The notes under the pieces were generated by a model, which had not been told where the DNA came from, made no database searches, and saw only the letters and a list, made by a program, of their open reading frames with translations. A stretch of 21,801 nucleotides of DNA from Baffinella frigidus (Eukaryota; Cryptophyceae; Cryptomonadales; Baffinellaceae), in the NCBI GenBank assembly GCA_026770585.1, contig MU646366.1, positions 842,313-864,113 of the forward strand. The letters run 5' to 3'. Each line of letters begins with the position of its first letter. Within the stretch, counting starts at the first letter, position 1. Made by a program: the position numbers and the translations under genes. This document shows, in pieces, positions 52-21,801 of this stretch.

Positions 52-3000
52 GTGGGTGTGTTTGACGCGGATGTATTCGAAGAGTTCTTCGGCCGTCGGG
101 AATGTTGCCCCATCGAACATGCACCGGAATGGCCGCTCCTCCACGGGTAGGTGGCTGCCCGCCAAAGGGTGATTGTTTAAGTATCGGTGAGGGGGTAGTT
201 GACGAAAACGCCTTTTTGCGAAAGTGACTGCGAGAGATGTCGCAAGGTCAGCCATGGATACTAGGCTCTCCTCCACGGGCAGGTGGCTGTCAGGGGGAGG
301 TTGTCGCATTTCAGAATCGGGTAAGCCTCTCCTCTCCTCTCACGTCCCCTCCTCTCCTCCTCCCATCCCCTCCCCAGCCCCGTCCCTCCATTCCGAACGG
401 AGCATGCAACCTCACGCGTGGCGCCAACCTCACCCCCCAACCCTCAAACTCACCCCTCGCCCCTCGCCCCTCACCCCTCAACACGCAACCCCCCTCGGGA
501 GTAGCGCAGACCTGACGCGATTGACAGGGGGCATGCGCTTGAGCTCGCCCTTCCACTTGAGAGGAGAGGGCAGTTCCCCGTCCATCCAGTCCTCCATGAT
601 GTTCGGCCCATCCTGCCGAACCCACCCGCGCGTCAAACCCTACACCCTACACCCTAAACCCCACGCCTTATGCCCTAAACCCTCAACACAACTGACTACT
701 AGCGAAGCTGACGCCCTAGACAAGGGTCTGTGTTAACACAGCGGGCTACTATAGACGTGATAGACCCGGTATTCTAGAAGGTCGACCCTCGAGTCGGGAA
801 CCCTGTCGAACGGGAGAGGATGCAACATCGATTCTGTGCAGCAGCTGACCACCCTCCAACGTGGACCACGCATCGCTCAGTCCTCGGCCAACCTCTTGGC
901 CAACATGCAAAGTGGAGCTGCCAGCATCCAAGCAATGCAGAAGCAGCTTTCGAATCTGTATTCCTGGAAGTTCACGGTCCAGGAATACAGACTGCCACCC
1001 CACTCCAACGTGGAGCAACTTCTCAACCGGCGCGCCGTTCCTACAGCGGCCCTGGGGGGGAAGGGCGCGGAGGTACGCGGGGGGGGGAAACCTCAGTGTC
1101 AAGAGCGGCCTCGTGATGCATCAGCTGCTCCAGCTCAGCGTCATCCGCACTCACCCCCTGCGATTCCTCCGCCTCAGGCGCCACGTCTTTGGCCGCGTCC
1201 ACCGCTTCCGCCTCTGTGCCTGCACACCACCGGCACGGGACGCTCAGTGTTTTGCACGAATGCGAGCAACCAACACCGTGCGTGTGGGTGCCGGGCTGAA
1301 GGAGAGTAACGCGGCAATTTTTGTTGGAAGATATTCTCTCAGCCGCAAAGCAGGTTCTGTGGTGCTCGTCGCGGGGAGCACCTGGCGCAACACTCCCCCC
1401 CGCGGCCTTGATGCGCTTGAGGCGGTTGATCTCCTTGAGCAGCTCCGCGATCCGTTGCTGTCGCTCCCCGCCTGCACGCGCGTGTTTTGTTTCTCAACGC
1501 GCGAGGCCGACTGTGTAGCTCTGCCCTAGTTAATCTGGGTTTCTCAGTATATATATTTTAGGTCCTTGAGGTTTTAATTTCTCACAACATATGCCAACGA
1601 CACGCCCTTCCGTAGGAAGGATCTGCAGAGAAAGCATTTTTGCAGTCTAGCTCTGCCCCAGTTAATCTAGGCTCCTCGTTGAATACATTTAAATGGTTTT
1701 TGTACTAGAGTGTGTGTACGGAGTCCTGGTCTAAATGTATGTAACGAGGCGCGCAGATTAACTGACACAGCGCCAGACCTCGCGTGTAGCAGATGCCGCG
1801 CGTGTGACCAAGAGCTGTCTGCACCCGGGTGGCCAACGAGAAACACTTTTCTCTTTTAGAGGAGCAGATAAGTAGGTAGGTTTTCGTGGAACATCGTCGC
1901 TGCCAAAATGCAAAGACGGCAGCCGTTGAGACTGCTGGAACGAACATCTGTGATTTTTTTGGATTCTGCAATTGTGTGGTTGGGCGCCCTGTCTGAAAGC
2001 CACTGCAGCTGCCACGACGCTTGTTTCCAATGGATCCAATGGGTTCCAATCTGGAGGTAAAAACTACACTCATGGTCTACCCCGCACCTGTTCCCAGGTG
2101 GATCAAGTGATCTAGCTCTGTCTCAGCCTATTTGGTCTCACCAATTTGGTGAGCCCGGGCTCTTTCCCGCCCCAAAGTGAACAAATTTGTACCACCCCCC
2201 AAACATGGCAACGTGGAAATAGTCAGCCAAATCGAGTGATACAGATCTGGGTGATACGGGACGACCCAATGCGGACCTGTCTCCGTGTCGGCGCCTCCAG
2301 CCATCGGCGCATCCCCATCGTCCTCGTCCTTGTCGCTGCCCTCCTCCTCATCACTCTGCTCCGCCCCCTCCCCGTCCGCCCCATCCTCGTGATCAACGCC
2401 TTCCGCGATCTCGGAGGAACGCACGACAGCTTCGCTCCCGTCTCCGTCGTCTTCTTCGTCCAGCTCGCCCTCCAAGTCCACGCCGTCCTCCTCAACCAAA
2501 CCTTCAAGTTCGCTGCCCATCCCCTCCTCTCCATCGTCCGAATGCACGGAATCAAACATGGCCCCCTCATCTCGTGTCGTCATCTTCCGGTTCCCCTCTG
2601 CGTCCCCGGCAGTCTTGGCCTCCCGGACAGCCTGGGCGATGGGGCCATCTTCGTCCAGCTCGTGCTCCCAATCCTGCACGTCTTCCAGCTCCTGCCGCCG
2701 ATCCTCAGTTCCTGCTCCGAAGGCGCGCTCAAACGCCGCAACCCAGTTGCTTCCTCCTGCCTTGAGATCCTCCTCCCCTGCGTTGGGATCCTCGGGTTCC
2801 GACGAGTCCTTATCCTTGGCGAACTTTGCTCGCGCCTCCTCCTCCCCCTCAATCTCCTCACTGGACCCATACTCACGGGCCGGCGGAGGCACCCACCCCG
2901 GCTGGGCCGGCGGAGGCTTCCACGGCACATCCCCGCCCCCTCGCAGCGCACGAACAACCGCCGACGAAAGGGCGCGCTCGGCGGGCGATGCAAGGTTCAG

Positions 3001-3180
3001 CTGGCGATGGTGAAAAGGCTCGGAGTGAAGGTGTGTCAGGGAGCGGCTTCCATGCTCCAAGCAGGCTCCCGCCGGTGCTCCATGCGGGAGCCATAGAAGG
3101 CACAGAATGGCGGTGCACGTGCGCCCCACCAGTTGGGCCCCCTGCCGCCGTGGAGGGGGGAGACGCATGCGATTCGGCAT
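52..3180 (-). CDS. Secreted or organelle-targeted acidic protein with coiled coil and degenerate C2H2-like finger (3' partial)
   Basis: Five minus-strand exons join in phase: 3180-2277, 1471-1382, 1219-1092, 612-512 and 154-52, giving 442 codons that continue past the left edge. The ATG at 3180 precedes a signal peptide (basic residues, then TAILCLLWLPHG, with a likely cleavage near residue 39). A Ser/His/Arg stretch follows and ends in LRGGG (79-83), which could be a transit peptide of a complex plastid. Residues about 100-300 are extremely acidic (DEEDDGDG, SDEEEGSDKDEDDGD). Exon 2 encodes a basic coiled-coil-like segment (IAELLKEINRLKRIK). Exon 5 reads EERPFRCMFDGATF and has exact C2H2 spacing C-x2-D-x3-F-x5-L-x2-Y-x4-H, but two zinc ligands are replaced. 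I do not recognise the family. Joining the acidic exon to the rest rests on matching phase (1, 1, 0, 2) and codon character. An extra exon within 780-1065 is possible. Confidence 0.65.
266..289 (-). repeat. Echo of the start of the last visible exon, in its upstream intron
   Basis: This stretch repeats the acceptor and first codons of the exon at 154-52 (plus-strand 135-158), with 3 mismatches in 24 bases, 131 bases away on the same strand. It keeps a CAG acceptor, so it forms a decoy 3' splice site upstream of the real one. Confidence 0.7.
613..1091 (-). other. Intron or unresolved exon, with a 14-bp hairpin
   Basis: This stretch separates two minus-strand exons that join in phase without it. 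It holds a short degenerate telomere-type tract (about 640-690) and a perfect 14-bp inverted repeat with a 9-base loop at 955-991. Between 780 and 1065 long frames are open on both strands. On the minus strand an acceptor near 1059 and a GTTGGC donor near 890 would give a phase-neutral exon; on the plus strand a Gln-rich helical peptide can be read. Neither can be confirmed from sequence alone. Confidence 0.4.
1472..2276 (-). other. Long first intron with repeated segments
   Basis: This 805-base intron of the minus-strand gene has donor GTCCGC at 2276 and acceptor GCAG at 1472. On the plus strand it holds three diverged copies of a segment beginning TAGCTCTG (about 1516-1547, 1648-1678 and 2113-2139) and, at 1560-1621, a copy of a dispersed repeat also found at 17524-17588. 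No coding exon was recognised in it. The acidic frame stays open past the proposed donor to a stop at 2128, so an unspliced, shorter product is a possible alternative. Confidence 0.5.
1560..1621. repeat. Dispersed repeat, copy 1
   Basis: Shares blocks such as GGTTTTAATTTCTC and ATATGCCAACGACAC, in the same order, with 17524-17588 some 16 kb away, with small insertions and deletions. No terminal repeats or coding capacity are visible, so the element type is unknown. Confidence 0.6.
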
Positions 3181-3896: not shown

Positions 3897-5313
3897 ATGG
3901 TTGCCGCAAGACATGACACTCCCAGCGACGACGAGGGCGACAGCAAGAAGCCTCCGGCGCCGCCTCGCCGGGGCGCCGAGATTGTCGGCATGGATGACGA
4001 GCAGGAGCTGAACCCCTCGGACGATATCGCGCATCATGCGGGCAAGCGCGAGACGGAGCTGCGAAAGGCGCTCCTCAGACGGTTGGACGAGCCGGAGGTG
4101 AAGGCCGAGCCCAGGAGCCGATCCCCGAAGGATCGCCGGCGACGGAGCCGGAGTGGGTCCCCGCGACGCCGCCGGAGCCGGTCGGGGGATCGCAAGCGCG
4201 GGCATGATGGGGAGAGGAGGCGGCGGGGGAGCAGAAGCCCGGAGCGCAGGAGGGGCGACAGCAGGGAGAGGGACAGGGGGCGGGATCGAGACAGGTTGTG
4301 TTCCGCATCACACCGCGCCTTCCGTGTGAGCGAGCGCCGCGCATCTCACTGCTTTTTCACTGCTAGCTCGATGCGCCCCTCGCGGATTTGTGGTACCACC
4401 CAGCAGCAGGTTAGTTGTTTCGCACGATTTACAGCGGCGCAGAAGACAACCGATTTTTTTGCAGCCCCTTAAAAAAGCTGAGGCAAGTCTCAGGCAAGCC
4501 GGGAGCTGACTAGTGGTGGGTGCGAACAGGCCCACGGAGCAGCCGGGCCACCCGCCTCGCCCAGGAGACTGGACATGCCCGTCCTGCAAGTGAGCCCCCC
4601 CATCCCCCACCCACACACCGTTGTAAAGGTTTTCCGGGGAGAGCCCAGAGGGGTTCGACCAGGTTCGATCCCACGCCGCGCCCCTGGCGTCTCTCCCTCC
4701 TGCGGCTGACGCCCCACCCACCACACCCTGGCCCTCTTCGGCCTGTAACTAACCGTTTCCTGACACGGCCACACCGCCTCGCAGGGCGAACGTGTTCGCG
4801 TCGAAGAGCGAGTGCTTCCGATGCCGCGAACCGAAGCCCGCGGGGCTGCCTGAGGCACCAGGGGGGACGCGCCCGCCCAAGGTCCAGACCCCCCCCCCCC
4901 CCCCTGGCCCCATCCACTCAAGACAGTACGGATAACCATCTAAAGTCATTTATGGGATGGTTTCTTAGGAAACACGCCAAAAGTCAGCAGTTGTTGGTCA
5001 CGTTACACCGGATGTCTGGTGCTGCGGTTTCCCGCAGTGTCCCGAGTCGCCGCGGTCGTGTATGTCAACTCAATAAATCTCGCGTTCTCTCTCTCGCGCT
5101 CAGGACGGCGAGTGGACGTGCAACCACTGCGGCGCCAACGTCTACGCCTCCAAGATCGAGTGCTTCCGCTGCAACGCCGCTAAGGGCTCCAAGGGGACTG
5201 GGGATGTCAAGACGGAGCCCGGGACAGGGGGGGGCGGGCGCGGGGGGGGGGGGAGGGCGAAGTGCAAGTTCGATCCGGATGAGCCGTTGCTCCCGGCACT
5301 TGCGGCCCGGAAG
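3897..5313 (+). other. N-terminal module: RS-rich region and two RanBP2-type zinc fingers
   Basis: Exons 1-4, residues 1-255. Residues about 95-133 are an arginine-serine region ([17 protein letters not shown] and similar), as in SR-type splicing factors. Two RanBP2-type fingers follow with spacing C-x2-C-x10-C-x2-C. Finger 1 has GDWTCPSC at 145-152 and CFRC at 163-166; finger 2 has GEWTCNHC at 187-194 and CFRC at 205-208. Both keep the conserved Trp (147, 189) and Asn (155, 197). In ZRANB2, fingers of this class bind single-stranded GGU and recognise 5' splice sites; the same role here is inference. A Gly-rich linker containing a long G tract (5227-5253) leads to the helicase. The intron inside finger 1 falls right after its second Cys. 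Confidence 0.8.
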
Positions 5314-8300
5314 GTACTGCCTCTACCGCCAGCTCCTCCCAACATGCCGGCTAAACTCTGAACCCTGAACCCTAAACTCATCCGTCAAGCGTGTAGAGTT
5401 TAGGTTAAAACTCCAAACCCTAGACCCTGCACCTCACACCCTAACTGATTGGCACCACGGGGGGTAGCGTGCGGCGTCCCCCGAATTTTAAAATCTCGAC
5501 TGGTACACATGCGGGGAAAATTTACGATAAAAATAGCAGGCTATGCCTCAAGTCCAGTGTACTCTGTTCTTGGTTTCATGAGAAACAACCAGCTGGCCAG
5601 GATTATAGGAGACGTGTTTTATGAGGTGGGCTGTGACAGCTGCTGAGTTGAAACCCTACCCCCTAAACCCTAAACCCTAAACCCTACACCCTGAACCCTA
5701 AACCCTACACCCTAAACCCTACACCCTAAACCCTAAACCCTAAACCCTAAACCCAAAACCCTACATCCTAAGCCCTTAACCCTAAACCCTGAATCCTAAA
5801 CCCTGAACCCTAAACCATCGACCTTAAACCCTAAACCCTGAACCCCACACCTTGAACCCTGCATCAGGACGAGGACTGGGCATCGCTGCCAGTGTTCGAG
5901 TACCGCACGACAATCATGGACATGATCCGCACCAACCGCGTCACGGTAAACCCCCTTTCTTAAACCCGAAACCCTAAACCCCAAACTCCAAACCCCAAAT
6001 CCTAAACCCTAAACCCTAATACCTAAACCCTAAACCCTAAACCCTTAACCCTAAACCCTAAACACTCAACCCTAAACCCTTAACCCTAAACCCTAAACCC
6101 TAAACCCTACACCCTAAACCCTAAACCCTAAACCCCAAACCCTAAGCCCCGAAACTTAAACCCTAAACCCTAAACCCTAAACCGAATCCTAAACCCTAAA
6201 CCCCAATTCATAACCCCTAAACCCTAAACCCCACACCCTAAACCCTGAACCCTAAACCCTAAACCTAGACCCAAAACCCCTGCACCCTGAACCCTTCACT
6301 CCACACTGTAGACCCTAGACCGCGCCAAGATGTTTCCCTGGCGAAAGCACCCATCGCCACAGTCATCCGCGCGTTCCACAGGCGCGTGTGGTGCATGCCG
6401 GAGAGAGATCACCTAATTAAACTGTTGGCGGCGACAGACACTGCATGCCTCAGATCCGAGGCGCCCCTCCCCCCCCCTGGAAGAAGCGCAACCTACCACA
6501 CGATGGCCCGCCAAACCTCGGCGCTGTGGTGCTGGTAGCTGACCGCGGATCGGGGGTTGTAGGTGCTCACTGGCGAGACGGGGTCGGGCAAGACAACGCA
6601 GGCACGCCCCCCCACCCTCCCCGGGGTGAAGCAGTTTCTCGAGCCGCAGATCGGATGGCATCTAGTGTGCTGTTGAGGCGCCCCCCTTCTCTTCTGGCCC
6701 CCGTGGTCTTCTCCGTCCGCGTTCCAGCTGTGTCCCTCATTTCTGCCAGACATACGACGTGTGCTCCGTTTGCCGACGCCGTGCTGACGCATTGCTGACG
6801 GCTGCCTGACGGATTGATGGCGGCTTGCTGACGCCGTGTGTGAATCTCACGTGCGCAGATCCCGCAGTACATCGCGGCAGAGAAAGGGTGGACAGGGCGC
6901 ATCGCGGTGACGCAGCCACGGCGCGTCGCGGCCGTGTCTGTCGCCCGCCGCGTCGCTGAAGAGGTCTGCTTTCCAAGACATTGTAGATGTTGCTATGTTT
7001 TCCTTGTTTTTTTTTGACGGTGGGGAAGACCCCCGACTCCCCCTTGGTGCACATCTAGTTGTAGGGTTGTATACCCAGCCGAGGCGCGTTGCTGCCGTGT
7101 CTGTCGCCCGCTGCGTCGGTGAAGAGCTTCTAGGTGGGGTTTATAGTATAGGGTTCTTTCACTCGTTTGACTTGTGTCGCGTGCCTATCATTCTGTGCTC
7201 TTCACCCCCCGCATGCAGTCTCAGGCTGCGTGGCCTTGTCTGCTGTCTTAGCTGCTGCCGCGCTGGTCCGAGCCACGCGCCCCACACGCATGGACGGCGT
7301 TGGGTCACGTGGCTGGCCCACGAGGGGCGGTGGCGCCCGTAGGCGACCCGCTGAACCGAGCCACGTGCCCCATAACCTGACCCACGAAGGGTGGCGCGCG
7401 GCGGCAGGTGGGGTGCGAGTGCGGGGACGAGATTGGGTACGCGATCAGGTTCGAGGACATCACGTCGGACAAGACCCGCGTCAAGTACCTCACTGACGGC
7501 ATCCTCCTCCGCGAGGTCCTCTCCCCTCCGGTGTTTGCCGCCTAGGTGCAACGGACAACGAACTGGAATAAGGGTAGTTATGCCTACGGTATTGACTGCC
7601 GTAGGCCGAAGGGCCCCTAAGCCCGGGTGTCTCACCTTCTCCCTCCCGTGTTTCCAAGCTCAAGAACTGGACGCGCGTCAAGTACCTCACTGACGGCATC
7701 CTCCTCCGCGAGGTCCGTCCCCGTTTCTCAGGGTTCAGGGTTCAGGGGTGTGTCTAGGGTCTGGAGTGTAGGGTGTAGAGTTTGAAACCAGGAGGGGGGT
7801 GTTTGGCATCCTCATCCGTGAGGTCATCTCCCCTCTTTGGTGTGCCGCCTAGTGCCTGATTTAATGCGGAAATGGATTCAATTGATTACACCATTGTGTG
7901 ATATCTTAAGGGTGAAATTCAAAACTTTAGCCTCGATATGACTTCACCACAGCACAAACCCCAACCTAAACCCTGAACCCCAAACCCTAAACCCTAAACC
8001 CTAAACCCTAAACCCTAAACCCTACACCCCCAACACTCAACCCTAAACCCTAAACCCTAAACCCTAAACCCTAAACCCTAAACCCTACACCCCCACTCAG
8101 TTGCTGACGGACAGGCTGCTGTCGGACTACTCAGTGGTGATGCTGGATGAGGCGCACGAGCGGTCTCTGCACACCGACATCCTCTTCGCCCTCATGAAGG
8201 AGGTCACCAGCCGACCACCCCACGTTTGTTGTGGGGGATAAGCAGGGTGGTTGATGGTGGTGGTGGTGGCCGGCATGGGCGTTTTGCAGCGAGGGTTGGC

Positions 8301-11300
8301 ACGTGCATCCAGTGTATGGCACTCACAGACATGCTCTTGACCCTCATGAAGGAGGTCCTCCCCCGATCCCCGCGCCACCAGCCGTCCTTGTCGGTGAGGA
8401 CGGCTGGCAGACGGCGCCTCTCAGGAAGACACGTTGCTTTCTGCCTGTGAGCAACACACCAAGTTTTCCGGAGCACAGGCGGGGCGGTTGATGTTTGATG
8501 TTGGTGGTTGCTGGCTGACATGCTTTCAACCCTCAACCCTAATCCCTGAAACCAAAACCCTACACCCTACACCCTAAACCCTAAACCCTAAACCCTAAAC
8601 CCCAAACCCCAAACCCCAAACCCTAATTTCTAAACCTCAAACCCCACACCCCAAACCCTGCAGGTGGTGACAGCGCGGCCGGACGACTTCCGGCTGCTGG
8701 TGACATCAGCGACGCTCGACGTCTCCAAGTTCTCGCACTACTTCTTCGACGCCCCCACCATCGACGTCCCAGGCAGATGCTTCCCGGTCGAGATCCAGCA
8801 CGTCGACTCCAACCGGTTCCCCTCCCCCAAGTCCTAAATCTCACCTCCCCAAATCCCAAACTGGAAAACCAGTGGCTCCTGTCCCCCCACTGGAAAGAGA
8901 GGCGCCTCCTCGGCTACGTGCTCTCGTTCGTGGATGCGTGCCCTTCACAGGTGACACAGGTCAAGTTGATTCGGGAGAGGGGAATTTGTTGATTGGCGAC
9001 AGGGGGCATGTGTTGAGCCGTGATGTTGGGCAGGTACGTGGACAAGGCGATGGAGCTGGTGGACGTGCTGCACTCCACGGAGCCCACCGAGCACCACATC
9101 CTCGTCTTCCTCACAGGCAACCCCCCCGAATCCAGAGCCCTACCACAGTTGACTAATCCGATGGAATACTCCACGGAGCCCCCCGAGCACCCATCCTCGT
9201 CTTCATCACTGGCATCACCACCCCTCCCACCCCCATGCCCTCACTGGCAACACGCCCCCTCCCGCCCACCAGTGCTACCACTCTCGACCATTTCCCGAAC
9301 TGGGTCCTACCACTCTTGAACAATTTCAGAACCCAGAGTCCTACCACTCTTGATCTGTGGAGATGCAGTCAGTGCAGGGGAGTGACAGCGGGTGTGGGAT
9401 GTGCAGGGGAGGACGAGATCGTGCGGTGCTGCCAGGGGGTCAACCAGAAAATCAAGCGCCGCCAGGTCACCAACCCTCAACCCGTTCCCACTCTCCCCCC
9501 CCCCCCTCCCCACCACCACACACACACCAAAAGCTGGAGTGACATGTGGCCATGAGGGGGGGTGACGCGTGGGTGTCACGGGGGGTTGCCAGAACCACGA
9601 AACACCACACACCACACATCAAAACACCAAAACACCAAAACACCAAAACACCAAAACACCAAAACACCAAACCCTAAACACCAAACACCCAACACCACAC
9701 ACGAAACCCTAACACGAAACTGGAACATTCAGGACGACGGGGAGGCGGTGCAGGGCCTGCGGATCTGCATGCTCCACTCCTCGCTTCCCGTCGAGTTCTA
9801 TCAGCGCGTGTTCGACGAGCCTCCCGACGGGACGCGCAAGCTTGTCGTGGCTACCAACATCGCTGAGACGTGCGCCCCCCCCCACCGCTACCAGAGAGAG
9901 GGAGGGGGAGAGAGACCGTGAGCGAGAGAGATACAGACGTGTGCTAGAGATGCGAACAAGTGCTCTGTGCATTGCTACCACCATCGCTGAGACGTGAAGG
10001 AAACCCCACCGATCTTGAACACCTCGCACGCCTCCTTGTTCGTTGCACGTGCGCTGTGCATTGCTTGCTCGCACCGCACGTGCGCCCGTGCATATCAGCC
10101 CTGCCGCACGTCGTTCTGTCTGCCCACTCCCGATTCGTGAAGGCGTTATGACATCGAAAAACTTCCAGCAGCTGGGAGAGGGTCACGTGACAGTCTTGCA
10201 ATATCGCGCAGGTCGATCACGGTGCCGGGCATCAAGTTTGTGATCGACTGCGGCGCTGTCAAGCAGAAGGTCTGCCCCCTCTCTCTCTTGCCCTGCCGCA
10301 CCCTGCACCCTCAACCTGCCGCACTGCACGCCTCCCCCGCGTCGATTCCCGCGTGGGAACATACCGCGCCCGATCTGCAGACACACGGGTTCCGACGTTG
10401 CTCTTTTTCTCACCACAGCCGCCCATGAGACGCGCGAGTGTGTGTCTCGCGCGCGCCACGCTTCCAGCGGAGGGTTGCGCCTCTTCTTCTGCGCCGGAAC
10501 AATTCATGTTTCTCTCTTTATGTGATGAATACACGCAGTTTTGCGGAAGATAAGCGGGGGGGTGGATGATGTTGGTAGTGGATGGCATCGCGAGAGAAGC
10601 TGACTTTCCTGTTTCATGTGCGCAGATTTTCAACGCGGAGTCGGGAATGGAGTCGCTGAACATCGTCCCTGTCTCCAAGCAGGCACGCCCCTCTCACCCC
10701 CTCCCGCCCCCTCCGCATTCATAGCCATGGTGGGAAGACCGCGCGGCGGAGAAGACGAAAGCCCCTCCTGCCATTCTACCCACAGGTTCCCCACTCCACC
10801 CACAGGTAGTGCCCCCACTCTACCCACAGGTAGTGGGCACTACCTGTGGGTAGAGTGGGGAGCTCGGACTTGGCCACCTCAGATACAGACGGGATGCCCC
10901 CTGTACCCACCCTACCGTCTTCTCCGCCGCTCTTCGCCCCCCCCCCTGGCACCACGGGTACCACACGGACACGCCGAGATGAGACGGGTACCATCCGGAC
11001 ACGACACACGGACACGCCTGACGGTGGATGGTGCGGGGTGGAGCAGGCAGCGAAGCAGCGGGCGGGGCGGGCGGGGCGCACGGGCCCCGGGATCTGCCTC
11101 CGGCTGTACAGTCAGAAGCGCATGGATACCGAGTTTCCCGACGAGACGGTTCGCGCCGCCCGGAGGATAGCACTCTTCCTGTTTTGCTTTGCACGGCCAA
11201 GGAGAGATGTGGATGAGGACAGCGACCGATTGCGCCTTGCTCTGCGAGGAAGCGCGTCTGGGGACACACTGTGTTGGCCCCGTGCGGGCACACGCCTTGT

Positions 11301-14300
11301 TACCCCCCGTTGGGTTGCGCCTTGCGCGGGAGGAAGGTGCGTGAGGAAGATGGTGGTGGCGATGTGCGCGGAATGTTTGGTGGCAGGCGACGAGGGTTGT
11401 GGGAGTTGTTGTGAGGCGCATCGGAATGATATCCTGATATTGACATGTTGGCTGGTCAAATTTTCTCAAAAGTATTCTCCCGCGCGATAGTCGCGAGCAA
11501 GAAAGTGAGTATCTGATGCGTGTTTCTCGACTTTTGGTGGCAGGCCCCCGAGATCCTGCGAACGAACCTCGCGTCGACGGTGCTGACCCTCAAGGGCATG
11601 GGCATCAACGACCCTCTCTCCTTCGACTACATGGATGCCCCGGACACCGAGAAGCTAGTCGCGGCTCTTCGGATGCTCTACCTCCTCGGGGCGCTTGACG
11701 CGGATGGCCACCTCTCCAAACTCGGTATGCTACCCACCTTGATTCCGCTGTGTAACACCCTGGATGTTGCGGTCTGATGGTATCCAGTACATGGTATCAT
11801 CTCTTCACCGTGCGACCGCCACCCACCAGTGGTAGCTACTGCATGTGGGCCTCGACTGCCTGTGCCACGTTTCCTCTCACCACGCTGTCTCTCTAACCTC
11901 GATACTGACCTTGCGGCGGGTGGTTGACACTTCGTGTACGGGCTGTTGTTCGACACGTGATCCGGGTCCCATCTTGCGGACGATGGTGTGGCAGTGGGTG
12001 TTTGACCGTGGGGGGTGGGCGACTGCCGTCATTCGTTTTAATGGATCTGTTGCGGACCTATCCTGGCAGGGCGGGACATGGTGCTGTCCCTCCTGCAGCC
12101 ATATTTCTTACATTGCTGACCCGACATTGCTGACATTATCACAGCCGCCTATTGGCAAAAGGTTGTTTTACTGACATTGGTGAGAGGGAGCAGGACGGGA
12201 CATGGCGTTGTTCCCGCTGGAGCCGGCACTCTCGCGCATGATCCTCGCGTCCATTCACCACGACTGCGCCGACGACATGGTAACCCTTCCGAAAGTGGAT
12301 CTACTCTTGGAAGTTGCCCTAGGCTCATACCATGCAAGCCCAGGAGCCCTGGGAGCCTAGATAACCACACACACGCTCGTTGCTCGAGCGGTTTTCGCTT
12401 GATCCAGTGGCATCATTCACTTGATCCGGTGGCGTTGAAGTGATTCAACATGGCTGCGCCGACGACATGGTATACCTGACGATAGTGGATCTACTCTTGG
12501 AAGTTGTCCTAGGCTCATAATTTTACAGCATACGTGCCGTTAGAGCCTAGATACCTACACACCGTCTCGTTGCCCCAGCGTCATCCACCTGACCCAGCGG
12601 CATGCAATTGATCCAGCTTGATGCGCCGCCGGCATCGCAACCACTGTCTGTCGACACGGATTGGTCAGCAACGGGCGCACGCAGACGGCCCTGGACCTGA
12701 AGCTCGGTGTGACGACAGGTGACGGTGGTGGCGATGCTGGCGGCGGACGGGGCGAACGTGTTCTACCGCCCGACCATGGCCGAGGAGAAGGAGATGGCCA
12801 CGGCCGCGAAGCAGCGCTTCTATGACCCTGAGGGCGACTACGCTGGCCTTCTCAAGGTCTTGCATTTTGCTCCTGTGGCCGGCATATGCGCAGCCACACA
12901 GTGGGCTACGAAGGGGTTCTTGGTGGCTGGGCCACCAAGAAACGGTTGGGATATCCGTAGAACCAGTGCATGTCCGTGCGATATTTCTTACGGTAGGGGG
13001 CAATACCATCGGGTCTTACGGATGATTGCGTTGTGGGTTGGAGATGATGACTGCCGCGAAGCAGCGCGTGTGCGATCCTGCGGGCGACTGCGCGGTTCTT
13101 CTCTCGGTTTCTACTGGAACCCTCCGCCCCATCTTTGGGGTGAAAAGGCACCGTTTCTCAACTTTCGGCGCGCCCAGCCATCTTTGAAAGTCCAAACCGC
13201 GTCGATGGGAGCATATGAAATGATTGTAGGCCCAAAAGATGCCTTTCAAACCCAATGGTTGCTACGAGCGGTGTTCGGGTGCGTCACGAGTGGTGAGTGG
13301 TGGGAGTGCAGGGAGTGTGGTGGGTGGCCGCCCAGTTGACTAACCATGTTACTCAAGCCTCCCTCGTCCGCAGCTGTTCAACGAATGGGTCGCGGCGGGT
13401 GGGGTGCGCGGGGGGCTCAAGTGGTCAAAGGACAACTACGTTCACTCGCGCGCCATGTGCCGGGCGTGGGACGTTCGGCAGCAGCTTCTTGGCATCATGG
13501 GCAGATTCGATATGCCCATCACCAAGGTGCATGCTTCCCTCCTGAGCGAGTGACTCACTCACTCACTCACTCACTCACCACTGACTGACTGACTGCCTGC
13601 CTGACTGACTGACTGACTGACTGACTGACTGACGCACTCACGCACGCACTCACTCACTCACGCACTGGCACCTCACACCTCCGATCGACTTCTTTTCTCC
13701 CTCCTCCTTTTCACACGTGGCAATCACTGTTCAGCGCACCCTCATGGCACACACCGTTAGTGAAGCGGCAAGACGGGGTGTGTGACTGAGGAAGAGGGTG
13801 GGGGTGCGGAGCGTGGGCGTCTAAATCGCGCTGTACACACCAACAAGAACATCACGTCGTAGCTCACTCATTTCACATGGCAGGGGTCCAGCAGCGTACC
13901 CTGCGGCAGCAGTGACACTGACAGTGTGGAGTGCGTTGGGTGCGGCAGGCGAAGCGAGTGCAGCAGGTCGGGCGCGCCATCGCCGAGAGCCTCTACGTCA
14001 ACGCCGCGCGCCGGGGCGGGAAGGACTGCTACGAGACCCTCGCCGAGGGCCGCATGGTCTTCCGCCCCTCCCGCCCCGCTTCCTCCGCTCACGCTTGCTC
14101 ACCCCCCGCGGAAGACGGCGATGCATGCTCTCGCATGTGCCGGAGCTCTGCAGCGTTCGTGGCCTGTGACACCCAGGCCGAACCTTGCACCCACACGGCT
14201 CACCCCCCCCCCTGGTGTGTGCCACCCCCCCCCAGGTGCTCGCCTCAGGTCTGACGCGCTCGGTGGTTGGCAAACCCGAAACCCTAAACCTTTTTCTTTG

Positions 14301-15484
14301 TCTGGCAGGTGGCCGTATCACCGTCGTCGCTCCTCGCGCCCTTCGACAAGGACGACTGGGCTGAGCTGGTGACCTTCGCACCCCGCCCCTCAGTGCTCAC
14401 TCACCTTCCGAAGCGTGCCACTGTAGCTGCGGGCCGCCATGTTTTCTCGGGCGGTATGTCTCGGATAGAGGCGTTGGCCCTGTACTGCGGCCCTCGATGT
14501 CGCCTCTCTGCCCGCGCCCGGAGGCGAAGAGGTCCCCAACATTGTAAACGTAAATCCCGTCCTGAGTCTTTCAATTATTCGTGGTACAGATACTAGTACA
14601 AAGCAGAAGGAGGCCAGGACGCACATGCACAGTGCGTTGAAGGGTGAACCCTGGCGTGGTGCCGGCAAATGGTGTGCCTGGAGCTGGTTTGGACCTCCAA
14701 CGGGCAGGGTGTGCCGTCCGTTGAGGGGTTGTGGTGGGTGGGTGGCAGGTGGCTCCTAAACCCTGCACCCGCAAGCAGGTGGTGTGTCTGGAGATGGTGT
14801 GGACATCCACCGGGCAGATGCACTTCTGTACAGTGTGGTGGTGGCTGTCAGACCCAGATGGAAAGGGCGTTGACGGGTGGAGGGTGGACTGAAGGGAGTC
14901 CCGTGGTGGTAGGTGGTGTGCCTGGAGATGGTGTGGACGTCCAACGGACAGATGCGGTTCGTGTGCGCGGCGAAGGCCAAGTGGGTCATGGACCTCCTCC
15001 CCAAGATCAACACGGTCATTTACTCCTCCCCAATCTCTCCACGCACGCATGGCGCTAGCCAGGGCAGGGTATTTGAGCAAGGCCTTCACGAAAGGGAAGA
15101 CACGGTGGCGATGCTGGTGTTGATCCGTGAGAAACACACTTTCCTCTCTGGGGTAGGTGGGCATCGAGAGGCTGTGCAGTGTAACGCCCCGCGGCGGGCT
15201 CGTCCTATACTAGGTCCTGACAGTAAGGATATTGAAGAAACTTTCCTCTCGGGGGCACAACCCACCTGACAGCACCACCTCCGGCGCGCAGGCTCGTAAC
15301 CCTAGGTGCTGACAGTGGCGGTGTGGGCAGGTGGACATCAAGCGGCTGTGCGGGGGGAACATGAAGATCAAGAAGAAGGGTGCGGACGTCGGCCTCGCGG
15401 ACGTGCGCGCTGCTGAGGCCGCCAAGGTCGAGGTGCGTTGGAGAGACACGCCACACCTTTCGAGCGAGAGAGCTCTCTTGCTCC

Positions 15485-15550
<66 letters not shown>

Positions 15551-16444
15551 AGCGCGGTCCGCTCAGTGGACCGCGCGTGGGCCTAGCGGAGGTGCGCGCC
15601 GCCGAGGCCGCCAAGGTCGAGGTGCGCGCAGCCTACCGCACCAACACGACACCCTCCAGGGCTTGCACCAAAACGAGGAGGCACGCGCGGCCGAGCCGCC
15701 AAGGTCTAGGTGAGCGCGAGAGAGACACCACTCCAGAACGCTCCAGCGCCCGATTTAAAACATGGTTTTTTTACAAGTGGGCCTCCAAGGTCGAGGTGAG
15801 CGCGCGAAAGAGAGGGGGGAAGTGACACTCACTGACACCCTTGTGCGAGAGAGACTGTCGAGGCCTCCCAAGATCGAGGTGCGCGAGAGAGAGCGACGCC
15901 CACTTCGAGCGCGAGAGCGAGAGAGAAGTCTCGTGGGAGATGGGGAGTGACACTCGCATACACTCTTCTGCGAGAGAGAAATTGGCTTGACACCCTGATT
16001 GATGCCGCCAAGGTCGAGGTGCGCGTGCGAGAAACGCTCACTTCTCTCTGTTTCTCTCTCGCTTTCTCTCGATCTCGATCTGCCTCCCTCCCTCCCTCCC
16101 TCCCTCCATCTCTCCCTCCTTCCCTCCCTCCTTCCCTCCCTCCCTCGCGCTCTCGCTAAACGCGAGATGTCAACCATCTGGTACTAAATCAAGAGTCAAC
16201 ATCTGGTACTAAATAAAGAGTCAACCATCTGGTACTAAATAAAGAACACGCAGGCCCCAAATCCGGTGCAGGTTCTTAAGTTATGTGTTGGTGTAACCCA
16301 TCCATCCCTGTAGTGTTGGTGCGGTGGGCTGAAGTGCTCTCCACCCGCGGCTGCTGGTAGGTGAAGAAGGACACAGGGGAGGTGAACGACGCCAAAGCAC
16401 GGTACCTGGAGCGCAAGAAAGCGCGCGAGGCTGCCGCCAAGTGA
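3897..16444 (+). CDS. RS-domain / RanBP2 zinc finger / DEAH-box RNA helicase (25 exons, 957 aa)
   Basis: An ATP-dependent RNA helicase of the DEAH/RHA group, probably nuclear and acting on spliceosomal or ribosomal RNPs. Exons: 3897-4294, 4530-4589, 4785-4881, 5104-5313, 5868-5945, 6563-6601, 6859-6963, 7408-7515, 8101-8202, 8664-8830, 9034-9116, 9407-9465, 9733-9869, 10212-10269, 10626-10682, 11047-11148, 11544-11724, 12194-12279, 12719-12856, 13374-13526, 13949-14056, 14309-14368, 14913-15014, 15331-15432, 16361-16444. They total 2,874 bases, all junction phases agree and there is no internal stop. Every helicase motif is intact. The wording of motifs and the order of C-terminal domains resemble Prp43/DHX15 and DHX35 more than Prp22, but I cannot fix the subtype. 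Three donors are GC (after exons 6, 11 and 15) and ten are GTC. Introns carry telomere-type repeats and copies of exon ends. It is possible that the RS/zinc-finger exons form a separate gene. Confidence 0.88.
5655..5846 (+). repeat. Intronic telomere-type array (CCCTAAA), intron 4
   Basis: Perfect and near-perfect CCCTAAA units, with variants such as CCCTACA and CCCTGAA, fill the second half of intron 4 (5314-5867) and run almost to the acceptor CATCAG at 5867. The 5440-5650 segment before it is a more AT-rich unique stretch with no recognised content. The C-rich strand is the sense strand of the helicase gene. Confidence 0.95.
5965..6290 (+). repeat. Intronic telomere-type array (CCCTAAA), intron 5
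   Basis: The longest array in the window, again C-rich on the sense strand, with scattered single-base variants. It occupies the first half of intron 5 (5946-6562). The rest of that intron (6291-6562) is unique GC-rich sequence in which I recognise nothing. Confidence 0.95.
7073..7126 (+). repeat. Echo of exon 7 in intron 7
   Basis: Matches the last 54 bases of exon 7 (6910-6963) at 47 of 54 positions, 163 bases downstream on the same strand. It includes helicase motif Ia, with TQPRR reading TQPRR-like as TYTQPRR context and VARR changed to VARC. The donor GAG|GT has become GAG|CT, so it is a dead exon end. The rest of intron 7 has a second diverged duplication (about 7273-7330 and 7361-7400) just before the acceptor. 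Confidence 0.85.
7674..7716 (+). repeat. Exact 43-bp echo of the exon 8 end
   Basis: Identical over 43 bases to 7477-7519, which is the end of exon 8 ([12 protein letters not shown]) plus the first four intron bases GTCC, 197 bases downstream. The donor is intact, so it could act as an alternative 5' splice site. Perfect identity suggests a recent event or ongoing gene conversion. Confidence 0.95.
7805..7852 (+). repeat. Second, diverged echo of the exon 8 end
   Basis: Aligns to 7498-7545 (last six codons of exon 8 and about 30 intron bases through CCGCCTAG), 307 bases away. It keeps a GAG|GTCATC donor. It is older than the 43-bp copy and shares more intron sequence, so the two arose by separate duplications. 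Confidence 0.85.
7955..8092 (+). repeat. Telomere-type array at the 3' end of intron 8
   Basis: CCCTAAA units, interrupted once by CACCCCCAACACTCA, run to eight bases before the acceptor CTCAG at 8100. The array therefore supplies the sequence where branch point and pyrimidine tract are expected. Confidence 0.95.
8322..8357 (+). repeat. Echo of the exon 9 end in intron 9
   Basis: Matches 8170-8205 (end of exon 9, reading FALMKE, plus the GTC donor) 152 bases downstream. CTCATGAAGGAGGTC is identical in both. Nearby, G-rich segments resembling GCGGGGTGGTTGATG recur at about 8240, 8480 and 10555. Confidence 0.85.
8524..8660 (+). repeat. Telomere-type array at the 3' end of intron 9
   Basis: CCCTAAA and variants (CCCCAAA, CCCTACA) lead directly into the acceptor CCCTGCAG at 8663, so the last repeat unit is itself part of the 3' splice site. 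Confidence 0.93.
9168..9214 (+). repeat. Echo of the exon 11 end in intron 11
   Basis: Copies 9072-9119 ([17 protein letters not shown]) 96 bases downstream, with a one-base deletion and a few substitutions; it keeps the G|GCA of the GC donor. A further short fragment (TCACTGGCAACAC) lies near 9240. The rest of intron 11 contains a tandem TCCTACCACTCTTGA duplication (9304-9354). Confidence 0.85.
9621..9672 (+). repeat. AAAACACC minisatellite in intron 12
   Basis: About six head-to-tail copies of the 8-bp unit AAAACACC, passing into CCCTAAA-like units before the exon 13 acceptor at 9732. Confidence 0.95.
9974..9996 (+). repeat. Echo of the exon 13 end in intron 13
   Basis: Matches 9850-9872 at 22 of 23 positions, 124 bases downstream. 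It covers the ATNIAET codons of motif V and the GAGAC|GTG donor, so the splice site is preserved. Confidence 0.85.
10772..10860. repeat. Tandem 21-bp units ending in a perfect 23-bp hairpin
   Basis: Intron 15 (10683-11046) carries three direct copies of a unit like CCACTCTACCCACAGGTAGTG, then the same unit inverted. Positions 10813-10835 and 10838-10860 are perfect reverse complements separated by only GG. Each direct unit contains CCCACAG|GTAG, which looks like an acceptor and a donor back to back. The remaining intron has short repeats of ACGGGTACCA and CGGACACG. Confidence 0.95.
12067..12100 (+). repeat. Echo of the exon 18 start in intron 17
   Basis: Resembles 12191-12224 (acceptor CAG plus GACGGGACATG and following codons, reading [10 protein letters not shown]) 124 bases upstream of the real exon. 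Intron 17 (11725-12193) is otherwise unremarkable. This is an exon-start echo upstream of its parent. Confidence 0.75.
12442..12520 (+). repeat. Echo of the exon 18 end plus intron start
   Basis: Copies 12252-12330 at a constant offset of 190 bases. It includes the DCADDM codons, the ATG|GTA donor and intron sequence, with a 22-base exact block at 12295-12316 and 12485-12506. Similarity fades but continues to about 12560 (GAGCCTAGATA, CACAC). Exon and intron parts are equally conserved, which fits a plain tandem duplication across the splice junction. Confidence 0.9.
13046..13103 (+). repeat. Echo of exon 19 in intron 19
   Basis: Resembles 12796-12853 ([19 protein letters not shown]) 250 bases downstream, with GCCGCGAAGCAGCGC identical. 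The donor is lost. The remainder of intron 19 (12857-13373) contains nothing I recognise. Confidence 0.8.
13550..13665. repeat. Microsatellite block in intron 20
   Basis: Runs of (ACTC)n, then (GACT)n with a few GCCT units, then (ACTC/ACGC)n, starting 24 bases after the exon 20 donor. The rest of intron 20 (to 13948) shows nothing identifiable. Confidence 0.95.
14671..14820 (+). repeat. Two echoes of the exon 23 start in intron 22
   Basis: Copies at 14671-14706 and 14776-14820 resemble the start of exon 23 ([14 protein letters not shown]), which lies at 14913. The nearer copy has a good acceptor (GCAAGCAG) preceded by CCTAAACCCTGCACCC. If used, it would add an open frame that ends at a TGA before exon 23. 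Real exon 23 uses a TAG acceptor at 14912 and alone continues into [12 protein letters not shown]. Confidence 0.9.
15478..15548 (+). repeat. (CT)n microsatellite in intron 24
   Basis: A nearly pure CT dinucleotide run of about 70 bases begins 46 bases after the exon 24 donor. Confidence 0.98.
15580..16034 (+). repeat. Five serial echoes of the exon 24 end
   Basis: The end of exon 24 (AAEAAKVE plus GTGCG donor, 15391-15438) recurs at 15580-15627 (43 of 48 identical), and in shorter, more diverged form at 15690-15720, 15779-15813, 15860-15892 and 16001-16034. Each contains AAGGTCGAGGTG or a one-base variant and is followed by GCGCGAGAGAGA-type sequence. Most keep the GAG|GT donor; the copy at 15690 has TAG in place of GAG. 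Confidence 0.92.
16083..16146 (+). repeat. CCTC/CCTT microsatellite in intron 24
   Basis: Tandem CCTC units with occasional CCTT, following the last exon 24 echo. Confidence 0.95.
16169..16247 (+). repeat. Three tandem 26-bp units in intron 24
   Basis: Three near-identical copies of GTCAACCATCTGGTACTAAA plus TAAAGA lie about 110 bases before the exon 25 acceptor (GGTAG at 16360). The repeated TACTAAA resembles a branch-point sequence. Confidence 0.9.
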
Positions 16445-17588: not shown

Positions 17589-17640
17589 TTGGGTTTTAAT
17601 TTCGCCCATTTTAGGACCTTTACATATGTAGAAAGGTGAT

Positions 17641-17715: not shown

Positions 17716-17921
17716 CATTTGGTGGAGGGCGAACAAAGAAAAAGCAAAGACGTCGACGAAGAACGGGGCGTGTCCCGTCTCGCCGAGCCGCCCTGCGCAC
17801 CCCTCTTCCACCGGATCCTCCCAGCCGATCAGTCCGGACTGCTTCGCCCTGGTGGGGGGTTCGGATCCGCGGGGTTGGGAAGGTGGAGATGGAGATTGGG
17901 AGTGCGCACAGTGGTGCCACA

Positions 17922-20900
17922 ATGAGCACGGATGCAGAGAAAGATTTATCCTTGCCGCACCCCAACACCATCACCGGCAGGTGCAACATCTTCCCCACTT
18001 CCCTCCCCCCCCGGCATCTGCCCCGAACCTGCGTCCCGGGCCCAAACAGTGGTGCTGGTTCTGACAAGATTGGGGGTCTGGAGAGGTCCTGTTTCCGTTT
18101 CCGGGAACGGAGCAGATTCCCTGTTACCCACGGTATCCGTGCGGTGGTCTCTGGCCTGATCTGAACGGTGAACTGGAGTGGTCCTGTTGCCGTTCCCAGC
18201 AACAGAGCCTCTGTGACCGCCCCCCCCCCAAAAATACGCCCAGCCTTGGCCCTCCTGAATACGGCGCTTTCCCGCACCGTCCCGCCTGCTGCCTCCCTCC
18301 CTACGACCCAGGCCCCACATGTAGCACACCCTGTGTCACCACACGCCCTGCACCCTGATGCCGCGTACCCACCTTCCCCTGCATCTCCACGAACCTTGCC
18401 ATCCGCCGCCCTTTTTCGGAGGTGCGCATCGGTTGCAGGGTATGGCCACCAGCGGCGGCAGCCACGAGCGGTGCACCCGGAGCTGTGAGAGCTGAGGGGG
18501 GGAGACAACCATACCTTCTCGCTGATCTCCCTGCGCCATGTCCCCCACGGTCTTCGGTGAGGAAGCTTCCGACGCAGAGCGCACGATGCGATACAACCTT
18601 CTAGACCTTGGTGATGGCTATCATCACAGCATCGTGGCCAGCCCGTACAAACCTGGACACGCGTGTAAAACCGACATTTGAACCAAGGCCACGGCCAGCC
18701 TCGAGTGGGGGGTCGGGGCGTGGAGGGCCATCGAGCCAGCGCATTCTACCCTAAACCATGACCCCTAAACCCAGCTCGGACTACATACAGTACAACGATT
18801 CGAGCGAGGGCCGCAACCCGCTCCCGTTCGCCATGGCCGAGAAGTTTGACAACGCGATCGCCGCAACCATGGTAACGAGGGAACCTCTAGCCCTCCGAAG
18901 TGGACTTAGCCTTGAATTCAGGAAACCCAGTTCGGCAACTCCACCATGGTCTAGCCCTGCCTCCCTCGGTGGCTGACTAGTTGACGTGCTGGGTATGCGG
19001 TACGAATCCGTATTTGGCGCGGGGAAGAGCACGGGCGAGTCCGGATTGGTGAGCCCGAATAGGCTTGGGGCAGAGCTAGGCAGCTGCGGGAGAGGGCGTG
19101 GACCCTGCTTCCCAAAGATGATTCACACGGTGGGCTACCGTCCTTTCATCAAAAGTCAACTTGCCCCGAGGCAATTAACGTGAAGGCCTTATCTGATGCA
19201 CACTTGGTCACGTTCCACCCAGATTCTGGGTGCAGTAAGTTCTGTCAGACAAGTGACCAAGCCCCGCCCGTGACTGGTACACATGTTTACAACCCCACAT
19301 TTAAAACGCCCCCCTTTCCAGCCTCGAGTGGTGAGCTCAGGTACACATACTTACAACCCCTGCAGTTGTTCCCGTCCCGCTCGAGAACGGACCCGGGTCG
19401 AGAACGGACTCGGGAAATCAACTTCCGGACTCATTATTTCCAGCCCAGATCGACTAAATCAAAGCCAGGTATTGATAGTGGCAGGCCGTGCGTTCGCCCA
19501 TGGATAGACCTGCCCGTTCAGCTATCGTCCTGGGCACTCACAAAAGCAACGTTCCGCGGATGTGCAGAAAAACCGGGACGTGAAGGGCAAGATTGACGTG
19601 TATCTCTGCTGGGGAGAGGACGAGACCGGCAGCGACTCGCTGACGACCATCGCGTTCTTTGATAATGGCATCGGTACCGAACCCGTACCCGACACGTAAC
19701 GGTTGCTAGTTTTCTTCTGGGAAACTGTTTCAGAACGGGGGCGTTTGAACGTCTCGAGGGAGGTAGGTCGTGAGGTCACACAAGAAGAGAAGATGCTCCC
19801 GAGAGTCACATACCCAGAGTCATATCACCAAGCATATACAGAGATAATGGCGTCGGTACCTCTCCCGTAACCCACTGCTGGAACAAAGAGGCACGTTCTT
19901 TCACCCCGACTTGACCAGGGGGGGAAAAACAAGGGCTCCAATAACGATGAAGGGCTCCAATAACATTGAAGGGACGCAATGGCAGGGATGGACAAGAAGG
20001 GATTGACAGCGTACGGGACCTACAACTTCTCGCAGAAGGACCGCGAAGATGTCAACCCCTCAACCATAAACACCACACCTTGAACACTATACTGTAAACC
20101 CTCAACCGGGGTGAGTTTGGATGAACGGTGCAGAGGGTAGTGTGCAGGGGTCTCTTGTTTCAAGGTTTAGGGGTTAAAACAGGCTCACGGTGAACTAAAA
20201 ACACGTTGGATTGGCTATCTTAGCCTCGGCATATGCACACATCTATGCCTACCATAGCACGCATCTCCGGACATTTTTCGTGCTAGTTAATTTTGGGATG
20301 GTAAACCCTGCACCCTATACCGCAAACCCACGCTTGCCTGCAGGCACCTTACGCTCTAAACCTTGAACCCCACACCATAAACCCTAAACGCTCAAGCGTG
20401 GGCTTACGGTTTAGTTTTTACGTTTTAGGGTGCCAGGTCTATGACGCCCGCTCATGCACTTACACCCTTTGGCAGCAATTATCCTCGAGTTTAGGGTTCA
20501 GAGTTCAGGTGTTAGGGTTCAGGGTTTAGGGTTCGAGGCAAGTGCGGGTGTAGGAGCTAGTGGTTAGGGACACGGGTTTAAGGATGCAGGGTGCAGCGTG
20601 CAGGGCGGGGGTAGGGTTCAGGTCGGGCTTCAACTATGGCACGTGACACCTCCCGCAGTAAGCCCGCATAATGCCTGAAGCAAGAGTGGGGCCAGGGGTG
20701 AGGGGTAAGGGGCTAGGGGTGAGGGTGTAGGGTTCAAGGTCCAGGTTTCAGGTTTCGTGTTTCAGGTTTCAGGTTTCAGCGTTCAGGTTTCAGGTTTCAG
20801 GTTTCAGGTTTCAGCTTTCAGGGTTTCAGGTTTCAGGTTTCAGGTTTCAGGGTTACGTTTTCGGGTGTGTCCTTCTCTGTGGGTCTGTTTTGTGCGCTAT

Positions 20901-21801
20901 ACCCCAAACCCTAAAGACTAAACCCTAAACACTAAAACATGATCTCGAAACCCTTGACCCTCAACCCTAACCGGCAAACGCTGAACGCTAAACCCTAGAC
21001 CCTAAACGCTAAACCCTCAACGCTAAACCCTGAGCCCTAAACCCTAAGCCCTAAACCCTCAACCCCAAACTCGAAACCCTAAACACGAGAGCCAAGAGGG
21101 GGACGACACGGACCCTCCCAAACCCCTCAACCCTCAACCCCCAAAAGAGCAGACAGCAAGACCAGGACCCTCTAGCATTGAGTGCTCTCTCTATGTCTCT
21201 CTCCGGGACAGGAGTCCCCAAACCCCGAACTCCAAACCCGAAACAGGAGCGCACAGAGCAAGAAAAAAATCAAGAAAGAAAGCAAGACCTGGACCCGCTT
21301 TCAATGAGCGGCAAAATCGGCTTTTTTGGGGTCGGCGCCCAGAACTCGGTGAGCACTGAGCCCCGAACCCTCGGCAAATCCCGACCCGCAATTCGGTAAA
21401 TCCGGCGTCGGGTCCCAGCTCTCAGCAACCCCTGCACAATGAACCCCAAATCCTGAGCCCTGCACGCTTACTCTGAAGCTCTAAACACTGAACCCGAAAC
21501 CTGAAACCTGAAACCTGAAACCCGAAACCCGAAACCCGAAACCCGAAACCCTAAATACCAAACCCTGAACACGGTATGGAAGGTGTTCTACAAGGTGCAC
21601 CAACCTAAACCCTAAACCCAACAGCTTCACGATGTGGAGGCGCAAACCCAGAACCCCACACCCTACACCCTACACCCAAAACCCGAATCCCCACACCCTG
21701 CACCCCAAACTCAAAAGGTGTTCTACATGGGCTTCAGAGAGCATATCATGACGCGCCAAGCCCCTTCGAAGAAACCTGCCCCGGCGGACACGCCCGGCGA
21801 G
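17922..21801 (+). CDS. SMCHD1/GMI1/MORC-like GHKL ATPase (5' part; runs off the window)
   Basis: Six exons: 17922-17980, 18775-18871, 19568-19673, 19986-20050, 21247-21348 and 21718-21801 (open at the edge), 171 codons in phase. Exon 2 reads SSEGRNPLPFAMAEKFDNAI: the Bergerat-fold N box, with putative catalytic Glu42 and Mg-binding Asn46. SEG-NPLPFA-AE--DN is, from memory, the wording of human SMCHD1. Exons 3-4 give AFFDNGIGMDKKGL, the DxGxG motif (D84, G86, G88). Exon 5 gives GKIGFFGVGAQNS, the glycine-rich lid; exon 6 continues VFYMGFREHIM, as in SMCHD1. Such ATPases act in chromatin silencing or DNA repair. The ATG at 17922 is the first in frame; an earlier exon may exist. Exon 6 uses an AAAAG acceptor. 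The SMC hinge, if present, lies outside. Intron 2 (18872-19567) holds small tandem duplications only. Confidence 0.82.
19843..19860 (+). repeat. Echo of the GHKL exon 3 end
   Basis: Matches 19661-19678 at 17 of 18 positions, 182 bases downstream: GATAATGGC, then A/G, then TCGGTACC. It covers the DNG codons of the DNGIG motif and the donor G|GTACC. Confidence 0.75.
20051..21246. repeat. Long intron 4 of the GHKL gene with telomere-type repeats in both orientations
   Basis: Sense-strand G-rich units (TTTAGGG, TTCAGGG) run at about 20470-20740. A homogeneous variant block of TTTCAGG follows (about 20745-20862). C-rich CCCTAAA units then run from about 20900 to 21090 and degenerate CCCCAAA/CCCGAAA continues to the acceptor GAAACAG at 21246. 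The two orientations are complementary, so the intron RNA could fold on itself. No coding exon was recognised. Confidence 0.85.
21487..21560. repeat. Graded variant telomere-type block in intron 5 of the GHKL gene
   Basis: Heptamers change in order from CCTGAAA to CCCGAAA to CCCTAAA, each repeated several times before the next. The pattern suggests local amplification of variants rather than random decay of one telomeric array. Confidence 0.9.
21583..21603 (+). repeat. Echo of the GHKL exon 6 start
   Basis: AAGGTGTTCTACA repeats the acceptor and first codons of exon 6 (VFYM at 21718), 135 bases upstream, preceded by GGTATGG. It keeps the AAG|GTG acceptor-like junction. Confidence 0.7.

Follow-up and report, generated by a model that had tools for sequence, protein, structure and literature searches.

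Duplications left by break repair, and intron gain by duplication, are already known. In mouse stem cells, breaks with protruding ends yield tandem duplications, the protruding segment being directly repeated when breaks with 46-base overhangs are induced (PMC5730883, accessible text). Insertions of 10–1000 bp in rice comprise tandem, partly tandem, and ectopic pieces, and have been blamed on offset nicks in patch-mediated double-strand breaks followed by end joining (Vaughn and Bennetzen 2014, as presented in the accessible part of PMC7407515). New introns can be created by tandem duplication of an exon piece containing AGGT and, in Daphnia, by break repair that leaves short flanking repeats; in both cases, repeats lie at the two intron ends and the message stays intact (PMC3443670, accessible part). 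Introners are a further system, in which mobile-element DNA enlarges the intron content (PMC9860276). Here, we analyze a 21,801-nt stretch of Baffinella frigidus DNA (contig MU646366.1, positions 842,313 to 864,113; hereafter the window, within which all coordinates are given), where a DEAH-box RNA helicase gene carries diverged, same-strand copies of its exon ends in the adjoining introns. We consider it somewhat probable (roughly 0.58) that these copies are scars left at exon-intron junctions by error-prone staggered-break repair, or by a template-switching kind of repair closely related to it.

The helicase gene occupies positions 3897–16444 of the forward strand, with 25 exons and an open frame of 952 aa in our exon model. 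Each of its 48 exon termini (up to 50 exonic bases) was aligned to the adjoining intron, with 200 dinucleotide shuffles as the control, which places the floor p at 0.005 and the number of termini expected by chance at 0.24. A same-strand intronic copy was found at this floor for 11 of the 48 termini, namely the 3' ends of exons 7, 8, 9, 11, 13, 18, 19, and 24 and the 5' starts of exons 18, 23, and 24. Exon-end copies beside splice junctions had been noticed in a first-pass annotation of this DNA, and all of the helicase termini listed there recur in our set, to which the start of exon 24 is newly added. For these 11 termini, no equal score was obtained in any non-neighboring intron of the gene. 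The 3' end of exon 23 reached p = 0.010, and a few weak alignments were left uncounted (the exon 8 acceptor at p = 0.010, and the exon 20 donor and a second exon 24 acceptor alignment, both at p = 0.008). Before counting, simple repeats and telomere-like ones were taken out by masking or discarding, which removed the alignments on both sides of exon 5 and at the acceptors of exons 9, 10, and 13. The similarity between exons 3 and 4 (4781–4824 and 5129–5172) was rejected as a copy and excluded from the counts, because it reads as a repeat of the RanBP2 zinc-finger protein sequence.

A scan with tiles, using a score threshold of 17, gave a corresponding picture of orientation. Downstream direct matches were found for 18 of the 74 donor-spanning tiles, and reverse-complement matches for 0 of 74. 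The 763 intron tiles gave 76 direct matches upstream and 45 downstream against 4 and 3 reverse-complement matches, many of the direct ones being the exon-end copies themselves. Strand switching also occurs, as is shown by an inverted copy of the exon 19 start on the minus strand (12624–12657, parent 12709–12745; p = 0.001 with 1000 shuffles).

The window is nuclear DNA of B. frigidus, a cold-water cryptophyte alga. A search of viral contigs with the protein P0001 found no relative, and plasmid and phage searches gave no result. P0001 is a partial B. frigidus protein that the joined helicase exons match with 99% identity over 69% of the query in a protein search; its 658 residues are reproduced exactly by exons 7–25 once the end of exon 10 is adjusted to P0001. 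This check covers exons 7–25, and exons 1–6 are our own reading only. The outer copies are the ones used by P0001, a public gene model, which agrees with the earlier suggestion that the outer copy stays functional. The encoded helicase is DHX8/PRP22-like, with an arginine/serine (RS)-rich start and RanBP2-type zinc fingers. Two such fingers lie at 4530–5313, an addition to an RS-rich-start DEAH helicase that is likewise present in the environmental relatives P0003 and P0004, which carry PF00641, the RanBP2-type zinc finger. The splice donors of the gene are unusual: they have C at +3 in 9 of 24 introns and C at +6 in 17 of 24, and 3 of the 24 are GC donors. Of the 24 acceptors, 21 are CAG. According to the accessible part of the genome report, the strain CCMP2293 has a 534.5-Mb short-read assembly with 41.1% repeats, a genome 6.1 times as large as the one of Guillardia theta, and an annotation by the Joint Genome Institute (JGI) pipeline, with RNA reads assembled (PMC9756366).

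The copies vary in extent and spacing, and all direct ones lie on the forward strand with their parents. The 3' end of exon 7 (6910–6963) recurs at 7073–7126 with 47/54 matching bases; this copy halts exactly at the exon edge (−54 to −1 relative to the junction) and has lost the donor. Exon 8, whose end and donor lie at 7473–7526, has a nearer copy at 7670–7722 (51/54; −43 to +10, with about 10 intron bases) and a farther one at 7805–7855 (43/52; −18 to +33, with about 33 intron bases). The end of exon 9 with its donor (8172–8219) is repeated at 8324–8371 (38/48; −31 to +16), that of exon 11 (9072–9127) at 9168–9224 with its GC donor retained (51/58; −45 to +10), and that of exon 13 with its donor (9840–9887) at 9962–10011 (38/50; −30 to +17). 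A longer segment, comprising the exon 18 end and the following intron (12253–12427), is found again at 12443–12614 with 76% identity over 175 bases, and the end of exon 19 (12790–12858) at 13040–13108 (53/69; −67 to +1). The largest array follows exon 24, where the end and donor (15387–15437) have five copies with donor between 15576 and 16048 (15576–15626, 15674–15734, 15780–15798, 15855–15917, and 16000–16048), which cover five ranges around the junction, with a longest intron part of at least 39 bases. On the acceptor side, the start of exon 18 (12190–12224) has an upstream copy with its AG at 12066–12100 (28/35), that of exon 23 (14911–14964) has two upstream copies within 14655–14829 (14655–14728 and 14777–14829), and that of exon 24 (15325–15351) has one with its AG at 15151–15177; these acceptor-side copies begin −2 to −11 from the junction.

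Several regularities emerge. Direct copies take in the splice junction itself at each of the 11 affected helicase junctions. The duplicated segments mostly span 13–69 exon bases and at most about 40 intron bases (at least 134 for exon 18). Donor offsets are 163, 197, 152, 95, 124, 190, 250, and 189 bases for exons 7, 8, 9, 11, 13, 18, 19, and 24, respectively; the range on the donor side is 95–307, set against a first-pass estimate of about 95–310 bases, and the exon 24 array extends to 586. As had been remarked earlier, the splice site is usually kept: of 13 donor copies, 12 retain the donor dinucleotide, which at exon 11 is GC. The donor of the farther exon 8 copy was read apart from the donor table, whose alignment sits 4 bases off. 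Copies and parents diverge by about 5–27% and have differing flanks.

The first-pass annotation had interpreted the copies as tandem duplications across the junction. In such a model the period equals the offset, so that 50–289 intron bases should be duplicated along with the exon end. We simulated this outcome with the divergence set by the exon part, both intron copies decaying, equal rates along the copy, and a single indel model; the GHKL junction was placed one base late, alike in both copies. Intron similarity as low as that observed arose in 0–0.5% of simulations for exon 7, the nearer exon 8 copy, exon 13, exon 24, and GHKL exon 3, and in 1.3% and 1.8% for the farther exon 8 copy and exon 11, respectively, which are borderline. 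For exons 9 and 19 the figure was about 19%, and a tandem origin is not rejected; for exon 18, a full tandem duplication fits, intron included. Across 10 copies, plain tandem duplication is thus rejected for 5, borderline for 2, not rejected for 2, and fitting for 1, and the earlier interpretation stands for exon 18 while failing for the five rejected cases, where the homology ends within about 20 bases of the splice site, with unrelated DNA between the copies. Two other origins were rejected. Copying from spliced mRNA is contradicted by the fact that, by eye, the copies are not trailed by the start of the next exon (the exon 7 copy has, after a short gap, about seven bases resembling it), and whole-exon duplication by the restriction of the copies to exon ends.

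What lies between parent and copy was examined for four spacers, three of which hold a truncated piece of a dispersed repeat, each from a different family. Between exon 8 and the nearer of its copies, the spacer contains half of a foldback repeat resembling a miniature inverted-repeat transposable element (7544–7633), with at least 56 matches in the genome, its own place included, among the best 40 of 274 candidates. A piece of a second foldback repeat lies in the exon 19 spacer (12894–12998; at least 46 matches including its own place, among the best 40 of 100 candidates), and a piece of a third repeat lies in the GHKL exon 3 spacer (19772–19839; at least 42 matches including its own place, among the best 40 of 294 candidates), ending a few bases before the copy. 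The intron homology between exon 8 and its farther copy stops about where the repeat arm starts. The dispersed repeats in these three spacers fill part of the intron, and in places telomere-like repeats are present between copies. Target-site duplication by a complete mobile element was rejected as an origin, the pieces in the exon 8, exon 19, and GHKL spacers looking truncated and not being flush with both copies.

The copies are not limited to the helicase gene; between roughly one quarter and one third of the tested exon ends have them. The GHKL gene in the same window repeats the 3' end and donor of its exon 3 (19661–19693, junction 19673/19674) at 19843–19875 with 82% identity, as had been claimed; a search at E < 0.1 did not recover a second claimed copy, of GHKL exon 6. 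Near the start of the window, in a minus-strand gene region, the pair of repeats that may represent the reported copy of exon 5 does exist (136–187 and 268–320, 74%). Beyond the window, family and protein searches supplied three CCT chaperonin genes (contigs C94, C6, and C39) and two DEAH paralogues (C300 and C71), with junctions placed roughly by protein alignment. Two stretches 6 kb apart on C94 were counted as a single gene, an exon of the C300 gene at about 1100–1210 lay outside the test set, and a chaperonin match that sits in a 446-aa open frame (L022) was excluded from the sample. At a floor p of 0.003, copies were found for 4 of 12 termini in the CCT genes, one of which, the exon 2 start on C6, is a mere 12-base match. 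The DEAH paralogues gave 4 of 11 termini at the floor, all in C300, one being a 17-base match. Pooled, 8 of 23 termini in these five genes reached the floor, with about 0.08 expected, and three of the five genes were affected. One C300 copy extends over 104 bases with 80% identity, 280 bases 3' of its parent, and the C94 gene has two copies of one exon start amid telomere-like repeats. In the same C94 gene (L025, L027, and L031), the beginning of one intron appears by eye to resemble the following exon's start, a pattern expected of intron gain by duplication; the alignment test matched elsewhere in the intron, with p = 0.020.

From what can be read directly in the DNA, namely the repeats, where they end, and what the spacers hold, we infer a mechanism of staggered-break repair as follows. 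Two offset nicks would produce an overhang spanning the junction, and fill-in at both ends would duplicate it; the ends would then be joined via patchwork filler. Splicing may subsequently act as a filter, through which junction-spanning events survive if their outer copy is intact. A duplication within an exon would break the protein, while after one over a donor or acceptor the outer copy would still supply an intact exon, the sole effect being a longer intron. Repeated rounds, as suggested for exons 8, 23, and 24, would enlarge an intron stepwise. The expected signature, short direct repeats with unrelated DNA between them, is clear in 5 of 10 copies and absent from exon 18. The filter would also account for the ratio of eight 3'-end to three 5'-start copies in the helicase gene, because a new upstream acceptor is likelier to be used by mistake. 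Intron growth, which had also been proposed in the first pass, is consistent with the longer introns at copies, with a median length of 461 (n = 11) against 267 for introns without copies (n = 13; one-sided p = 0.010), a contrast that is confounded because longer introns give more room for copies.

Several observations weigh against staggered-break repair. The excess of 3' ends is not repeated in the other genes, where copies were found for 4 of 13 3' ends and 4 of 10 5' starts. The homology is mainly exonic and fades soon past the splice site, the intron part being mostly shorter. The exon 9 spacer has only a self-match in the readable genome, and spacers may be no richer in repeats than other intron DNA, the genome being 41% repeat. 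Finally, fewer intron-only repeats are seen than would follow from a uniform process. With 55-base sources and unmasked placements in the helicase gene, 5628 placements are intron-only, 1139 junction-spanning, and 1178 exon-only. When intron repeats joining or derived from exon copies are set aside, intron-only clusters number 3 of 14 (introns 7, 23, and 24), or 4 of 15 counting one in intron 11. The expected intron-only share is 55–83% at a relative visibility of 0.25 to 1, giving P = 0.011 to 7e-7 for 3 of 14 and 0.024 to 2e-6 for 4 of 15; at half to quarter visibility, P is 0.0002–0.024. The repair model would account for this scarcity only with a hot spot or a faster intron turnover.

The alternatives draw on the same observations. 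Plain recurrent tandem duplication over junctions, by slippage or unequal exchange with later loss of the intron part through fast turnover, is unlikely as a general account. It would explain the full tandem copy at exon 18 and the resemblance of exons 23 and 24 to multi-copy arrays, and at exons 9 and 19 the divergence is large enough that the intron part could have faded. However, it conflicts with the five cases rejected by simulation, and fast fading of introns is not general, since exon 18 has an exon identity of 82% and yet an intron that is alignable over most of the period. The free copying of random pieces is disfavored, since none of the 11 copy-bearing helicase junctions has an exon-interior copy that lacks the junction (P = 0.0004 under such copying). 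Breaks or strand switches could instead be directed to junctions, for example by splicing-linked R-loops or polymerase stalling, with exon ends copied far more often than other DNA as a result. The presence of the splice junction in direct copies at 11 of 11 helicase junctions, the deficit of intron-only repeats, and the similar anchoring of the copies examined in C94 and C300 all speak for this idea, which we nevertheless regard as distinctly improbable: selection on exons alone accounts for much of the anchoring, and the opportunity count is a crude one on one gene, dependent on cluster reading, masking, and assumed visibility. Because the clusters were counted by judgement and in a single gene, we treat the junction excess as a lead and not as a result. 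Exon-interior copies being unseen and intron-only copies scarce, there is room for a junction hot spot, and it is conceivable, if rather doubtful, that exon-intron boundaries are break-and-copy hot spots tied to transcription or splicing that feed intron growth and the 6-fold larger genome compared to Guillardia.

Two further explanations fare worse. The copies might be maintained by selection, whether they serve as splicing enhancers, act as decoys for splice sites, or provide alternative exon ends, in keeping with the retention of GT or GC in nearly all donor copies; this is very unlikely, as the offsets show no frame bias (a multiple of three in 1 of 8), stops or frameshifts occur in some copies (the second copy of exon 24, exon 11, and the C300 copy), and the exon 7 copy is without a donor. 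Chance similarity or assembly error is barely credible. The assembly is admittedly a short-read AllPaths product, but chance is opposed by the floor p values in both the helicase and the other genes, and assembly error by the fact that the copies diverge from their parents, sit in different flanks, and occur on several contigs.

Among known systems, those described above come closest to the Baffinella copies. The rice insertions likewise combine tandem or partly tandem with ectopic pieces; splice junctions are not mentioned in the accessible part of that account, whereas in Baffinella they carry the copies at the frequency given above. The segments repeated in mouse stem cells are similar in size to those in Baffinella, although the breaks there were induced and the accessible text makes no mention of dispersed-repeat spacers. 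As in the AGGT and Daphnia systems, introns change and the message stays intact, but in Baffinella it is mostly existing introns that grow, with copies 95–307 bases from the junction. AGGT-type gain would place a copy directly at the new acceptor, and the Baffinella introns continue beyond their copies. Introners share the enlargement of intron content by mobile-element DNA, but the elements in the spacers examined are truncated, come from different families, and occupy part of a longer intron; a term search of the introner text found no mention of cryptophytes. Among the papers listed in our literature searches, which covered few subscription journals, none described exon-end copies in cryptophyte introns or such a density of them at splice junctions.

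Other features of the window stand apart from the copies. It opens with a run of 44 G (1–44), preceded by 10 kb of N (L002), and this run is possibly an assembly artefact; among 20 stretches of 10 kb sampled from the genome (L002–L021), 16 are entirely N. Long, diverged telomere-like repeats of the CCCTAAA type occur on both strands at 5640–5870, 5950–6300, 7960–8100, 8520–8660, and 20300–21720, in helicase introns and in the GHKL gene region. Intron 3 contains a further stretch (4922–5072) matching one of the sampled stretches (L017), and intron 15 a near-perfect palindrome (10771–10861; 48 bases, 96%).

Intron lengthening is usually inferred from old, faded sequence. In B. frigidus, one genome appears to show many growth steps of differing age, with parent, copy, spacer, and repeat piece all present. 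If the rates of 11 of 48 and 8 of 23 termini hold genome-wide, a comparison of strains could measure intron growth per event, and an excess of breakage at splice junctions over other DNA would become testable.

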